From NCBI GenBank assembly GCA_009773315.1, contig WRPE01000034.1, forward strand, positions 1-34,054: a stretch of DNA of 34,054 nt, in the 5' to 3' direction. Source of the DNA: Syntrophaceae bacterium (lineage in GTDB: Bacteria > Desulfobacterota > Syntrophia > Syntrophales > Smithellaceae). Below the pieces are notes generated by a model. The model was given only the letters and a program-made list of their open reading frames with translations, had not been told where the DNA came from and searched no databases. This document shows positions 11,220 to 18,083 of this stretch, piece by piece. The first letter of the stretch is position 1. Every line of letters begins with the position of its first letter. The translations under genes were made by a program, and so were the position numbers.

Positions 11220-11543
11220 ATGACGCTTGCGTGGATTTATCTGATCATAGCCGGTCTGCTGGAAATCGGCTGGCCGCTGGGTTTCAAATTGTCTCAGACC
11301 ACGTCATACAGAGTTGTCTATATCCTGATGGCCGTGGTGTGCATGGGACTCAGTGGATTTTTTTTGTGGCTGGCGCAAAGAGATATTCCGATTGGAACGG
11401 CTTACGCGGTTTGGACGGGAATCGGTGCATCCGGCACGTTTCTCATCGGTCTGATCGTTTTTCATGATCCCATATCGATGATGCGGATTTTGTCTTTTTT
11501 GCTGATTGTGATGGGCGTGATTGGTTTAAAGATATCTGCCTGA
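11220..11543 (+). CDS. gdx: SMR-family transporter, guanidinium exporter (Gdx/SugE) type
   Basis: A 107-aa small multidrug resistance protein with four membrane helices. The N-terminus WIYLIIAGLLEIGWPLG carries the essential membrane glutamate (Glu15), and the LEIGWP context is typical of SugE/Gdx rather than EmrE/QacE. The later AYAVWTGIGASGTFLIG segment is also family-typical. Characterised Gdx proteins exchange guanidinium for protons across the inner membrane. The 38-bp upstream gap is too short for a guanidine riboswitch and I saw no such motif, so guanidine control is not supported. It sits alone between kdsC and lptC, an unusual intruder in this envelope cluster. Confidence 0.85.
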   Translation: MTLAWIYLIIAGLLEIGWPLGFKLSQTTSYRVVYILMAVVCMGLSGFFLWLAQRDIPIGTAYAVWTGIGASGTFLIGLIVFHDPISMMRILSFLLIVMGVIGLKISA

Positions 11544-13607: not shown

Positions 13608-15080
13608 ATGGCTTTTGAATTAAAACAGAACTTAAAACTATCTCAGCAACTGATTATGACGCCGCAGCTGCAGCAGGCGATCAAGCTCCTGATATTATCG
13701 CGCCAGGAATTGGTGGAATCGATTAATCAGGAAATGGAAGAAAATCCGTTGCTCGAAGAGGTAGCGCCGGACGAGGCCAGCGCCGAGGAATTGCGCGCCG
13801 GTGTCGAAGACGATGTTCAGTCCATTGAAAAGGAAGACAGTAAGGCCGTCGAACGCACGCAAGAACTGACCGGCGAAGGTGACGGCCGCGAGGAATTTGA
13901 CTGGAATAATTATCTGGAAGATTACGGACCTGTCGGCGTTTCTTATGACAGGCCTGATGCGGATGTTCCAACGATGGATAATGTTTTAACGGAAAGTCCG
14001 TCGCTTGTCGAACACCTGATGTGGCAGATGAAACTGTCGCCCTTTACGGAAAAGGAAGTGCGTGTCGGTTCTCAAATCGTCGGCAACCTTGATCAGAACG
14101 GCTACCTGTGCGCGACCGTGATGGAGATTGCCCAGTTGGAAAATGTCAGTGAAGACAATGTTGAAAGCGTTTTGAAAAAGGTTCAGGAATTTGATCCGCC
14201 AGGCGTGGCAGCCCGCAATCTCCAGGAATGTCTGCTCATTCAAGCCAGGATGTTAACAAAAGAAAATCCTCTTCTGGGAATCATTATACGAGAGCACCTC
14301 AAAGATCTTGAACTGAAAAATTATGTTCATATTGCCCGAAAACTAAAAGTACCGCTTCGCGAAGTGGAAATCGCCGTTCTGTTGATCAGTAAAATGGATC
14401 CCAGGCCGGGGGCCATGTATTCGGAAGAGAAAATTCAATCAATTATTCCCGATGTTTATGTTGTGAAATCGGGAGATGACTATAAGATTATTCTCAACGA
14501 TGATGGTTTGCCGCGCCTGCGGATCAGTAATTTTTATCGTGAACTGATGGGCGGCGTTGGCGGACGGGATCATGTGGAAGAAGAAAACGGCAAAAAATAC
14601 ATCCGCGACAAGGTACAGTCGGCCACCTGGCTGATTAAAAGCATTCAGCAGCGGCAGAAAACGATCTATAAAGTCGCCGAAAGCATCGTTAAACATCAAA
14701 GAGATTTCTTTGATCGCGGTATTGATTATTTAAAACCACTGGTTTTAAGAAATATAGCCGATGATGTGGACATGCATGAATCAACCATCAGCCGTGTTGT
14801 GACGAATAAATATATGCATTCTCATCGCGGTATATTTGAAATGAAATATTTTTTCGGCAGTTCCATCCAGAGAACGTCCGGTGAAAATATTGCCTCGAAA
14901 AGTGTTAAAGAGGAAATAAAGCATCTGGTCGCAACGGAAGACCCTAAAAAGCCCCACAGTGATTGCGAAATCGTTGCTTTACTCAAGGCCAAGGGAATCG
15001 ATATCGCGCGGCGGACGGTTGCCAAGTATCGTGAAATGATTGGAATATTGCCGTCGTCCAAAAGGAAGAAATATTTTTAA
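13608..15080 (+). CDS. rpoN: RNA polymerase sigma-54 factor
   Basis: A 490-aa sigma-54. Region I (residues 1-50) begins MAFELKQNLKLSQQLIMTPQLQQAIKLL and carries the Gln/Leu-rich activator-responsive sequence. An acidic region II spans about 50-120. The core-binding domain follows to about 310, then the DNA-binding region with the helix-turn-helix (DDVDMHESTISRVVTNKY) and the RpoN box ARRTVAKYRE at residues 467-476, which reads the -24 element. All regions are intact and length is normal. It directs promoters that require AAA+ activators. The lptB-rpoN-hpf-ptsN order is widely conserved. I found no convincing -24/-12 promoter in this window. Confidence 0.97.
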   Translation: MAFELKQNLKLSQQLIMTPQLQQAIKLLILSRQELVESINQEMEENPLLEEVAPDEASAEELRAGVEDDVQSIEKEDSKAVERTQELTGEGDGREEFDWNNYLEDYGPVGVSYDRPDADVPTMDNVLTESPSLVEHLMWQMKLSPFTEKEVRVGSQIVGNLDQNGYLCATVMEIAQLENVSEDNVESVLKKVQEFDPPGVAARNLQECLLIQARMLTKENPLLGIIIREHLKDLELKNYVHIARKLKVPLREVEIAVLLISKMDPRPGAMYSEEKIQSIIPDVYVVKSGDDYKIILNDDGLPRLRISNFYRELMGGVGGRDHVEEENGKKYIRDKVQSATWLIKSIQQRQKTIYKVAESIVKHQRDFFDRGIDYLKPLVLRNIADDVDMHESTISRVVTNKYMHSHRGIFEMKYFFGSSIQRTSGENIASKSVKEEIKHLVATEDPKKPHSDCEIVALLKAKGIDIARRTVAKYREMIGILPSSKRKKYF

Positions 15081-15237: not shown

Positions 15238-15771
15238 ATGAACATTTCGGTAACTTTCAGAACAAGCGAAGGTGAAAGCTGGCAAAAAACCTATGTTGAG
15301 GAAAGAATCGTCAAACTGAAGAAATATCTCGATGTGCCTGCCGAAGCCCATATTATTCTTTCAACGGAAAAGTTTCGTAATGTTGTAGAAATCAATCTAA
15401 GCGCCAATGGCTGGAATGTAAACGCTAAAGAAGAAGCCAAGGATATGCATCTGGCCGTGGACAGCTGCATTGATAAAATTGAAAGACAACTTAAAAAGCA
15501 AAGAGAAAAGACCAGAGAGCATAAGGCCCAAAGCATCCGCCATGCGGACGAGAAGACGACGGAAGGTCTTGAAGAGGACGAATATGCGATAGCAAAAGTG
15601 GTGGAGACCCGCAAGATCGTCTTAAAACCCATGTCGCTGGAAGAAGCGGTTCTGGAGCTGGAAGGCGGTAAAGCCCGTTTTCTGATATATCGGGACACCG
15701 CTTCCGAAAAAGTTAGTCTGGTCTATCGACTTGATGATGGTAACTTTGCTCATATCGAAACGAACAGCTAA
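15238..15771 (+). CDS. hpf: Ribosome hibernation promoting factor, long form
   Basis: A 177-aa protein with an N-terminal ribosome-binding domain (about residues 1-95, starting MNISVTFRTSEGES; beta-alpha-beta layout with HIILSTEKFRNVVEINLSANG), a charged linker (about 90-115) and a C-terminal dimerisation domain (about 117-172, with VLKPMSLEEAVLELE, ARFLIYRDTASEKVSLVYRLDDGNFAHIE). The second domain marks the long form, which dimerises 70S ribosomes into inactive 100S particles. Short-form HPF plus RMF, as in enterobacteria, is not seen here. It has its own promoter and a strong ribosome-binding site. Confidence 0.93.
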   Translation: MNISVTFRTSEGESWQKTYVEERIVKLKKYLDVPAEAHIILSTEKFRNVVEINLSANGWNVNAKEEAKDMHLAVDSCIDKIERQLKKQREKTREHKAQSIRHADEKTTEGLEEDEYAIAKVVETRKIVLKPMSLEEAVLELEGGKARFLIYRDTASEKVSLVYRLDDGNFAHIETNS

Positions 15772-15883: not shown

Positions 15884-16351
15884 ATGCGACTGGATCAAAT
15901 TTTTAAAATCGAATTTCTTAATGAAAATCTCACGTCCAACACCAAAATAGACGTGCTGGCGGAGTTGATTAGTGTTCTGATTAATAGTGGTCTGAAGATT
16001 GACAGAGCCAAAGCCATCGATGTGTTGCAACAAAGAGAAAAATTGGGGTCAACAGGCATTGGTGACGGCGTTGCCATCCCTCACGGCAAGGTTTCGGATC
16101 TGCATGAACTTATTGTCGCTTTTGGGCGTAGCAAGAAGGGGATTGCATTTGATGCAATTGACGGGAAACCGGTGCATCTTTTTTTTCTGCTGTTGGCTCC
16201 GGAGAATTCAACCGGCCAGCATTTAAAAGCATTGGCTAAGATTTCCAAAATGTTAAAAACGCCCAACTTCCGTAAGAAACTTATCGACGCAAGAACAACA
16301 AGTGATTTATATAAAGCGATCATTGAGCAAGATGAGTCTTGTCCTGTGTAA
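15884..16351 (+). CDS. ptsN: Nitrogen-PTS regulatory protein EIIA(Ntr)
   Basis: A 155-aa EIIA domain of the fructose/mannitol family. The phosphorylatable histidine is His67 in DGVAIPHGKV, equivalent to His73 of E. coli PtsN, and GSTGIGDGVAIPHGK is the family signature. FRKKLIDARTTSDLYKAI closes the domain. PtsN relays phosphorylation state to nitrogen, potassium or envelope targets rather than carrying sugar. The rpoN-hpf-ptsN-hprK-rapZ order is a classic regulatory set. No HPr or enzyme I gene is in the window, so its phosphodonor is encoded elsewhere. Confidence 0.95.
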   Translation: MRLDQIFKIEFLNENLTSNTKIDVLAELISVLINSGLKIDRAKAIDVLQQREKLGSTGIGDGVAIPHGKVSDLHELIVAFGRSKKGIAFDAIDGKPVHLFFLLLAPENSTGQHLKALAKISKMLKTPNFRKKLIDARTTSDLYKAIIEQDESCPV

Positions 16352-16370: not shown

Positions 16371-17216
16371 ATGGTCACTCTGGAAACTATTTTTCGGGAT
16401 CGTCTGCCTTCATTGGGCATCCGGGAAATATTGACGCCGCAGGGCTTGAAGAAGCCATTGTCCAGGCCTTACATTAAAAACTGCCGGAGGATCTTGACCG
16501 CTCAGCATCAAGAAGGCGCGATTATTATTCTTTCATCCGGGGCGCAAGAAAAGCTCATGGCGCTTGCCGATCCGTTACGTCAGAAAATTTTAGCCAATCT
16601 TACCTTCAAAACGCCTTTGCTGATTTTCGCTCAATGCATTGCATGGCGGACTCCCCTGAAAAAATTACTCAAACGGCATCACCTGCCGGCTGCGATTTCC
16701 TCCCTTCATGAAAATCTTCTGGAGAGCCGGATCAAGGCGATCATTCAAGAAAAAATCAAAAATTGTGTCACCGTTCATGGTGTCGTCCTGGAGATTCAGG
16801 GCCGGGGAATTCTGATTACCGGCGCCAGCGGAATAGGCAAGACGACCGCAGCGCTTCAGGTCATGTCCAAAGGTTATGTTTGGATAGCCGATGATCGGGC
16901 CGTGATTAAAAAAAATAAAAGCGGCCAGCTTATTGTTTCCGGCCATAGGGAAATTAAAAATTATGTTCATACCGAGCAGATTGGGATCGTGTCGGTTGAC
17001 CGTATTTTGAATGCGGCACAGATCAAAGCCAAGACGACGCTTACCGCAGTCATTGATGCGATCAGAACCGAGGTGGACGATGTTTTCTCTCAGTTCATCG
17101 AAAAGGATATTCTGGAAACCAGACTGCTGTGCCTGCAAATCGGGATTCCCCGCGCTGGCTATTTGGACAAATATTTGTTAAGACAAGCCGTAAAAAAATT
17201 GAAAGAGGTTGGATAA
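16371..17216 (+). CDS. hprK: Divergent HPr kinase/phosphorylase
   Basis: From the ATG at 16371 the protein has 281 aa. In-frame upstream ATGs at 16332 and 16302 lie inside ptsN and none has a clear ribosome-binding site; 16371 was chosen because VTLETIFRDR fits the family start. The C-terminal half has the HPrK layout: HGVVLEIQGRGILITGASGIGKTT (catalytic-type His, Walker A) and IADDRAVI (metal/catalytic Asp). It differs from typical HprK: GASG replaces G[DE]SG, the EIRGLGI signature is reduced to VHTEQIGIVSV, and the C-terminal R-P-G-R-N-type loop is not recognisable. It would phosphorylate, and perhaps dephosphorylate, Ser46 of HPr. Retention of the kinase core with loss of the signature motif suggests altered activity (inference). 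Confidence 0.8.
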   Translation: MVTLETIFRDRLPSLGIREILTPQGLKKPLSRPYIKNCRRILTAQHQEGAIIILSSGAQEKLMALADPLRQKILANLTFKTPLLIFAQCIAWRTPLKKLLKRHHLPAAISSLHENLLESRIKAIIQEKIKNCVTVHGVVLEIQGRGILITGASGIGKTTAALQVMSKGYVWIADDRAVIKKNKSGQLIVSGHREIKNYVHTEQIGIVSVDRILNAAQIKAKTTLTAVIDAIRTEVDDVFSQFIEKDILETRLLCLQIGIPRAGYLDKYLLRQAVKKLKEVG

Positions 17217-18083
17217 TTGAAAAATATCCATATTGTTATCATCACGGGATTATCCGGTTCCGGCAAAAGCACCGCGCTTCGGGCCATGGAAGACATCGGT
17301 TTCTTTTGTGTGGATAATCTTCCCGTCGTTTTGCTGCCGAAATTCATTTTCATTACCCTCCAGTCCTCCCCAGAGATCAGACAGGTGGCGATGGTCATGG
17401 ATTTACGGGAAAGAAGATTTATCGAAAAATACCGGCGTATCTTTGAACAGCTGAAGGGAAAGGGATACAGAATTGAAATTCTGTTTCTGGAAGCCAGTGG
17501 AGGTTCGCTGTTGCGCCGTTTTAATGAAACAAGGCGCAGTCATCCACTATCCGCGCAAGGTTCGATTCAGGATGGCATCGATCTGGAAATAGAGAAGTTG
17601 TCTCCTTTAAGACAATTGGCGGATAAAATAATTGATACGACGGAGACCAATATTCATCAACTCAAGGATATTGTGCAGAGGCATTTTCTTCCAGTTTCCG
17701 AACAGAAAAAAATGATCATTAACATAACTTCTTTTGGTTACCGGTACGGGTTGCCGGCGGACGCGGATCTGGTGATGGATGTACGATTTTTACCCAATCC
17801 CTATTATGTGGAATCGTTGAAAAAATTTGACGGTCATCAGTGCGCCGTGGAAGCGTATGTTTTGGATAACGCGGAAGGCCAGGAATTTTTGAGGAAATCA
17901 ATCGACATGATGGATTTTCTCATTCCTCTTTATGAAAAAGAAGGAAAAGTCCGCCTTAACATTGCTTTGGGATGCACCGGCGGTCATCATCGATCCGTTG
18001 TGATGGCCAACCAGTTCAGTTCACATTTCCAGGCGATGAAATATATTGTTCATACCTCTCACCGGGATATCAATAAAAGCTGA
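17217..18083 (+). CDS. rapZ: RNase adapter protein RapZ
   Basis: A 288-aa RapZ/YvcJ-family nucleotide-binding protein. It starts with TTG immediately after the hprK TAA, with GAAAGAGG upstream as a ribosome-binding site, so the two are tightly coupled. Walker A is GLSGSGKS (residues 11-18). The family segments [57 protein letters not shown] and [10 protein letters not shown] are all present. In E. coli RapZ senses glucosamine 6-phosphate and guides RNase E to the sRNA GlmZ; outside enterobacteria the RNA partner is unknown, but nucleotide binding is conserved. It ends the plus-strand regulatory run and faces the M23 gene tail to tail. Confidence 0.95.

Follow-up and report, generated by a model that had tools for sequence, protein, structure and literature searches.

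The gene between ptsN and rapZ in the window (the whole stretch of 34,054 nucleotides analysed here) is, by its fold, its locus and its core residues, an orthologue of the HPr kinase HprK. We hold with moderate confidence that its product phosphorylates Ser46 of the bacterium's own HPr at the expense of ATP, its P-Ser-HPr phosphorylase activity being weak or absent; by analogy, it most likely resembles the HprK of alphaproteobacteria in function. The gene and its cluster comprise:

13608–15080, plus strand: rpoN (sigma-54), member of the hprK cluster, with three sigma-54 Pfam domains
15238–15771, plus strand: hpf (ribosome hibernation factor), member of the hprK cluster (PF02482, PF16321)
15884–16351, plus strand: ptsN (EIIA-Ntr), upstream neighbour of hprK (PF00359, 128.7 bits)
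16371–17216, plus strand: hprK-like gene for a divergent HPr kinase of 281 amino acids (ATG start, open reading frame calls, Pfam/NCBIfam, phmmer)
17217–18083, plus strand: rapZ, downstream neighbour of hprK (PF03668 and PF22740)

The frame opens with the ATG at 16371 and its stop codon ends at 17216; a GTG at 16302, giving the longest open reading frame, and an in-frame ATG at 16332 are alternative starts. The order rpoN-hpf-ptsN-hprK-rapZ puts the gene at the orthologous locus of the HprK family. The arrangement ptsN-hprK-rapZ recurs in relatives, canonical and divergent, wherever the flanks are long enough, and replacement by a paralogue was rejected because canonical and divergent Syntrophales copies share this position. 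That the source genome (G000) has a further HprK, of canonical form, at another site was rejected as well: PF07475 and the HprK profile A1 have a single match each there, and the window gene is the sole HprK orthologue found in that genome. A Smithellaceae MAG and a 'Deltaproteobacteria' MAG supply its two closest full-length named relatives (94% and 91% identity), in a search that reached four distinct loci, only of close relatives. On the basis of these names the source genome is assigned to Smithellaceae (Syntrophales), and 'Smithellaceae' in the counts below means family f1. In the LPS-export/rpoN cluster, a gene for an SMR (small multidrug resistance) family transporter (11220–11543, plus strand) is flanked by a KdsC-like phosphatase gene and lptC.

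The protein matches the Pfam profile PF07475 (Hpr_kinase_C) at 76.6 bits, the cut-off being 33.3, over profile positions 5–115 of 171 only, and scores 104.5 bits against the NCBIfam HprK/P equivalog TIGR00679, for which the cut-off is 240. The annotation 'kinase/phosphorylase' is unsuitable, because the defining features of this bifunctional equivalog are missing. An AlphaFold2 model computed from an alignment of 35 orthologues has a mean pLDDT of 93.1 and a pTM of 0.83, and the predicted fold is that of HprK. With Foldseek and 1000 preselected chains, the best seven entries were all HprK (Z 18.8–19.7), the next row following at Z 9.7; five catalytic-domain entries superimpose with an rmsd of 2.4–2.8 over 142–150 residues. 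The full-length HprK proteins of S. xylosus and M. pneumoniae align over 267 and 270 residues across model residues 1–281 with an rmsd of ≈ 15 Å, which is read as a different orientation of the domains. As these alignments span residues 1–281, both domains are present; a profile alignment to 1ko7 begins at profile position 8, and no separate N-domain Pfam match was obtained at E 0.001. The two-domain organisation and the P-loop kinase fold are shared with the bifunctional HprK/P of Firmicutes and mycoplasmas (L. casei, S. xylosus, M. pneumoniae; 1KKL, 2QMH, 1KO7, 1KNX). The following elements were located within the gene:

16371–16760, plus strand: N-terminal domain (residues 1–130), from structural alignments to full-length HprK and the profile alignment to 1ko7
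16776–16781, plus strand: His136-Gly137 of the HGV motif, kept (His140 in the numbering of PMC9399212), from the alignment
16821–16844, plus strand: P-loop 151-GASGIGKT-158, with Lys157 kept and the Mg-coordinating Ser replaced by Thr158, from the alignment
16890–16895, plus strand: Asp174-Asp175, kept (equivalent to Asp178-Asp179), from the alignment
16968–16988, plus strand: signature counterpart HTEQIGI (residues 200–206), with Glu204 replaced by His200, Arg206 by Glu202 and Gly207 by Gln203, and Gly205 kept, from phmmer and the alignment
17070–17084, plus strand: short hairpin turn (residues 234–238) in place of the flexible Arg245 loop, Arg245 being absent, from the model secondary structure and the alignment
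17151–17168, plus strand: K3-loop counterpart RAGYLD (residues 261–266), leading from the last strand to the C-terminal helix, without the RPGRN motif, from the model and the alignment

The His of HGV, the Walker A motif and the Asp pair, all noted in the preliminary description for the gene between ptsN and rapZ, are confirmed as His136, residues 151–158 (with Lys157) and Asp174-Asp175. Its contrast of GASGIGKTT with the usual G[DE]SG-GKS stands for the Ser-to-Thr exchange at the Mg position; the residue after the first Gly carries little weight because it varies, being commonly Asp or Glu in other Syntrophales and mostly Lys or Arg in 30 canonical copies from the rest of the phylum. Two further changes are Glu to Thr159 in the P-loop and Leu to Trp171 before the Asp pair. 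The signature had been described as unrecognisable, and this is borne out by phmmer, which pairs HTEQIGI with EIRGLGI and retains only the final Gly-Ile, Gly205 being the last Gly of the signature; the protein reads VHTEQIGIV where the consensus given in PMC2937029 is (ILM)E(IV)RG(ILMV)G(IV)(ILM). The C-terminal RPGRN-type loop had likewise been called lost, which is right for the motif and wrong for the structure, since the model places a different loop at the same site (strand 250–260, short loop 261–266, helix 267–280). Overlooked at that time was the loss of Arg245 and the shortening of its loop, modelled as a short hairpin.

The distribution of these changes was followed in a census of 100 aligned HprK copies, 23 from Smithellaceae, 47 from other Syntrophales and 30 from other Desulfobacterota, the latter being the best-scoring of 52 strong matches and hence biased to the canonical form; one copy split over contigs (G015) and two fragments (G002, G011) were left out. 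The P-loop Lys and the Asp pair are kept in all 100. Among the 23 Smithellaceae copies, Thr158 and Gly209 are invariant, His140 is found in 22 and Arg or Lys at position 206 in four, and not one has Glu204, Gly207, Arg245 or Asn272 of the K3-loop. The 41 other divergent Syntrophales copies have Thr in 38, His140 in 31, Gly209 in 40, Arg/Lys206 in 36, Glu204 in 14, Gly207 in 23, Arg245 in two and Asn272 in three. Six Syntrophales copies (G085, G092, G093, G109–G111) are canonical, having Ser162 and every motif except for His140 (two of six) and Asn272 (five of six). Glu204, Arg206, Gly209, Arg245 and His140 are present in each of the 30 best copies from other Desulfobacterota, Gly207 in 29 and Asn272 in 24. 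With PF07475, scores of at least 183 bits were reached by 52 of the 55 orthologues from outside Syntrophales in the phylum sample, the copies of G207, G165 and G129 being divergent. The second residue of the P-loop varies, G[DE]SG being common in other Syntrophales and GKSG or GRSG prevailing in the 30 phylum copies; judged from the alignment, the group-specific change in the P-loop is that from Ser to Thr at the Mg position.

The canonical copies of the other Desulfobacterota and of the six Syntrophales are orthologous to the window protein and occur, as it does, alongside an HPr with Ser46 and Gly49; the six also share its position between ptsN and rapZ. Unlike the window protein, they keep the signature, the Arg245 loop and the K3-loop, the latter being PGRN-type in most of the 30 aligned from the phylum and SGGN or SGGS in Syntrophales. 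Compared with the Firmicutes and mycoplasma enzymes, the window protein has a matching His, Lys, Asp pair and last signature Gly, and presumably the same HPr site, but lacks Glu204-Arg206-Gly207, the Arg245 loop and the RPGRN, VGRN or PGRK of the K3-loop, and has Thr for the P-loop Ser. The form is common to the Smithellaceae and so cannot be put down to chance in a single member; sequencing error or decay in a single genome was rejected, as the form recurs in 23 copies and the AlphaFold2 model is confident. Among open-access titles and abstract openings, those on HprK in Syntrophales and other Gram-negatives included, we found no earlier report of this form.

A tree was calculated from 107 columns, without those of the signature, Arg245, the K3-loop and Ser162 and with those of Thr159 and Trp171 left in. 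The 23 Smithellaceae copies form one clade on a long stem (SH-aLRT 100). All 64 loop-less copies group together at SH-aLRT 92, below the 95 mark and with few columns and unresolved forks, and the six canonical Syntrophales copies stand apart (SH-aLRT 82). The simplest account, which is not firm, is that the loop was probably lost once within Syntrophales and the signature subsequently on the Smithellaceae stem. Loop loss probably came with the Ser-to-Thr exchange in the P-loop and with Leu to Trp before the Asp pair in most copies.

Neither ptsH nor ptsI lies in the window, as the preliminary description had stated, yet both are present in the source genome. The search for ptsH returned one HPr (G000:C57:48388-48627; L034:8377-8646) with the equivalents of His15 and Ser46, the latter within NGKSILG; EIID precedes it and EI follows. 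Together with the mannose-class EIIA, which is encoded elsewhere beside open reading frames that look on visual inspection like EIIB and EIIC, these are the PTS parts found. Absence of the substrate was accordingly rejected.

HPr was compared with HprK occurrence in two sets of genomes. In the first, made up of relatives and class samples, HPr was read in 113 of the 115 genomes that had an HPr match (G016 and G017 were left out), and three with a partial or broken HprK (G002, G030, G102), all Gly49, were set apart. Residue 49 is Gly in 59 and Ser in nine of the 68 HprK-bearing genomes (22 Smithellaceae, 40 divergent, 6 canonical) and acidic in none; among the 42 genomes without HprK it is Asp or Glu in 31, Gly in nine and Ser in two. 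Counted by genus, an acidic residue occurs in 0 of 31 with versus 13 of 20 without HprK (Fisher p 1.6e-7, relatedness ignored). In the second, non-Syntrophales set, HPr was read in 110 of the 130 genomes that had an HPr match, the 20 left out being 2 with and 18 without HprK; a lower-scoring stand-alone HPr was used for G195 and G210, and HprK status was taken from PF07475 alone (present at 82.5 bits and above, all other matches reaching at most 33.5 bits). All 51 HprK-bearing genomes have Ser46 and Gly49. In the 59 without, residue 49 is acidic in 40, Ser in ten, Gly in five, Asn in two, Ala in one and Gln in one; two of the five with Gly49 have Gly at position 46 too. Over both sets, relatedness again being ignored, residue 49 is Gly in 110 and Ser in nine of the 119 HprK-bearing genomes and acidic in none of them, as against 71 of 101 without HprK; Ser46 is found in 119/119 and 90/101, respectively. 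Every Smithellaceae genome with an HprK orthologue and a readable HPr has Ser46 and Gly49 (22/22, including G006, G024 and the contig-split G015, with the broken G030 and the fragment G002 counted apart).

According to PMC9399212, Glu204 and Ser162 are Mg ligands, Asp179 is the proton acceptor/donor and Arg245 is important in stabilising HPr binding; residues 203–212 matter for both phosphorylation and dephosphorylation, and residues 266–271 for dephosphorylation. The link between the signature and phosphorolysis drawn in the preliminary description is therefore too narrow. Because residues 203–212 matter in both reactions, full kinase activity too becomes less likely with the signature lost, and with Glu204, the signature and Arg245 gone the kinase may be crippled; as far as the sequence tells, either the metal would be held otherwise or the kinase would be impaired. 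His140, for its part, is not strict even in the canonical Syntrophales. The M. pneumoniae HPrK residues at which mutations affect kinase activity (Gly154, Ser156, Gly159, Lys160, Ser161 and Gly207; PMC11204831) all have counterparts in the window protein, Ser161 as Thr.

A natural precedent is described in PMC2937029: the HprK of B. melitensis, without the C-terminal region, phosphorylates NPr and barely dephosphorylates it. Like this short alphaproteobacterial enzyme the window protein is without the C-terminal phosphorylase region; unlike alphaproteobacterial HprK, which has no N-domain, it keeps that domain, and the signature, which a figure legend of the same paper marks with a box in the aligned proteins, is lost in the Smithellaceae form. 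The C-terminal region is stated there to occur in most deltaproteobacteria, to which the aligned Syntrophales copies are mostly an exception. Motifs do not fully predict activity, since the M. pneumoniae enzyme is cited as a weak phosphorylase (PMC2937029) despite keeping the signature and a PGRK loop.

By analogy, a kinase-only form is plausible and precedented. It had been one of two suggestions made at the outset and is now the best-supported reading, indirectly, through the universally kept Lys and Asp pair, the missing dephosphorylation loop and the B. melitensis case (PMC2937029). The window enzyme would phosphorylate Ser46 of HPr, phosphorolysis would have been abolished when the K3- and Arg245 loops were lost, and P-Ser-HPr would be reset by another phosphatase or by turnover. 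A PP2C gene (L268:1387-2169) is encoded in the source genome and its product could be a candidate for the reversal, as PP2C reversal of HPr phosphorylation is cited for M. pneumoniae (PMC2937029).

Alternatively, the gene may be dead or dying. Having lost the Mg ligand and the HPr-contacting Arg loop, its product would be a pseudokinase that no longer phosphorylates and lingers for some time by binding HPr or ATP, or else the gene would be disappearing in the manner of genera g2 and g3. We regard this as unlikely, if less so than the other alternatives below. It would fit the absence of Glu204 and Arg245 from all Smithellaceae copies and the Tyr which the window copy has in place of the family's Asn268. 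Selection can be read both ways. The dN/dS of hprK against seven same-genus relatives is 0.26–0.53; the five more distant pairs have 0.28–0.38, compared with 0.02–0.13 for ptsN and hpf and 0.07–0.14 for rapZ, and in the two nearest pairs, where numbers are small, rapZ is also high (0.26–0.31). Being below 1 yet above those of its neighbours, the values indicate purifying but relaxed selection.

Damaged relatives also fit decay. The copy of G030 in genus g3 (L204, C95:39681-40217) has three stop codons just 5' of the kinase domain, that of G024 (L041, C57:33399-34433) is a stop-free frame of 363 amino acids with an insert directly after the P-loop, no N-domain was found in that of G023, and that of G006 has Pro in place of His. 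By profile search no orthologue was found in 13 of 13 g2 and 4 of 5 g3 genomes, at most 23 candidates per genome having been scored in one search and 42 in another, so that some of these calls may be wrong. With its one broken copy and four other sampled members without an orthologue, genus g3 gives the appearance of hprK loss in progress. A dead gene is harder to reconcile with Lys157, Thr158, Asp174, Asp175 and Gly205, which are kept in all 23 Smithellaceae copies, and with HPr, which has Ser46 and Gly49 in all 22 HprK-bearing Smithellaceae but Asp49 in all 13 HprK-less g2 genomes.

A decidedly less likely alternative is that the enzyme is still bifunctional, a family loop (Gly263, Asn268-Leu-Leu) and an HT-x-x-x-G-I motif replacing the K3-loop and the signature; the metal ligand might then be a His or some other residue. 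The loop does lie in the corresponding place, between strand 250–260 and helix 267–280, and is fairly conserved in Smithellaceae (Gly263 in 19, Asn268 in 22, Leu269 in 21 and Leu270 in 21 of 23); His192 is found in 22 and Thr201 in 21 of the 23 copies. Yet the window copy, unlike its near relatives, has Tyr for the consensus Asn, Tyr, Thr or Trp can take the place of His at position 200, none of the dephosphorylation-associated residues has been retained, and the natural HprK without the C-terminal region reported in PMC2937029 is a poor phosphorylase.

That the protein is a serine kinase for another protein or a small molecule, e.g. the neighbouring EIIA-Ntr or RapZ, is very unlikely: the HPr-contacting Arg245 loop is lost, ptsN and rapZ adjoin hprK, and PEPCKs, small-molecule enzymes of related fold, appear in the structural table at Z 8.3–9.1, but an HPr with Ser46 and Gly49 is encoded and co-conserved with hprK, the same locus holds canonical HprK in six other Syntrophales, and the earlier suggestion of a target other than HPr is not supported, every HprK-bearing genome counted having Ser46 with Gly or Ser at position 49.

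Should the kinase-only reading be correct, one orthologous locus would provide a natural series of canonical, loop-less, loop-less and signature-less, and absent HprK, with which experiments could separate the kinase from the phosphorylase determinants of HprK/P; it would also mean that the kinase can persist without its canonical metal ligand.

The association of HPr residue 49 with HprK presence is clear in direction. An independent-pairs test on the EI tree was borderline, with eight supported pairs, of which a mean of 4.7 changed the same way and none the opposite way (median p 0.0625, at low power). Residue 45 is Lys or Arg in all 68 HprK-bearing genomes of the first set and gave no signal in the same test (mean 1.2 of eight the same way, median p 1). 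Gly49 is kept in all four g3 genomes without an orthologue, as expected if the loss is recent, since G030 of this genus still has its broken copy. The Ser46-x-x-Asp/Glu arrangement resembles a helix N-capping box.

Tentatively, as a possibility rather than the expected case, we propose that in Syntrophales the bifunctional HprK/P was dismantled stepwise to a dedicated kinase and then lost. HPr would keep Ser46-x-x-Gly49 (in a few cases Ser49) for as long as HprK is present and usually acquire Asp or Glu at position 49 afterwards, and the capping box might engage the hydroxyl of Ser46 or imitate P-Ser46. In that case Ser46 kinase activity could be read from residue 49 in a genome, and the Smithellaceae enzyme would be active as a kinase without the Glu204 metal ligand. 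Part of the residue-49 pattern could stem from contact with EI, because a docking model places the residue at the interface with that protein (PMC3724859). Among open-access titles and abstract openings no earlier report of a link between HPr residue 49 and HprK was recognised, which is weak evidence of novelty. If real, the tie would offer a simple sequence test for serine-kinase control of HPr in Gram-negatives; such control is hard to test in syntrophs, which are difficult to grow and manipulate.

Two minor observations concern other HprK-related frames. Recurring Smithellaceae proteins of ~307–322 amino acids (L045, L046, L053, L054) give weak matches to the HprK profiles. In other Syntrophales, HprK frames of 173–247 amino acids apparently lack the N-domain (L196, L130 and L131 in genus g49 of family f10; L109 and L110 in G092 and G093). 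The copies of G092 and G093 (in the latter the match runs through a stop codon) keep the signature and the K3-loop, and loss of the N-domain and loss of the loop therefore look independent.
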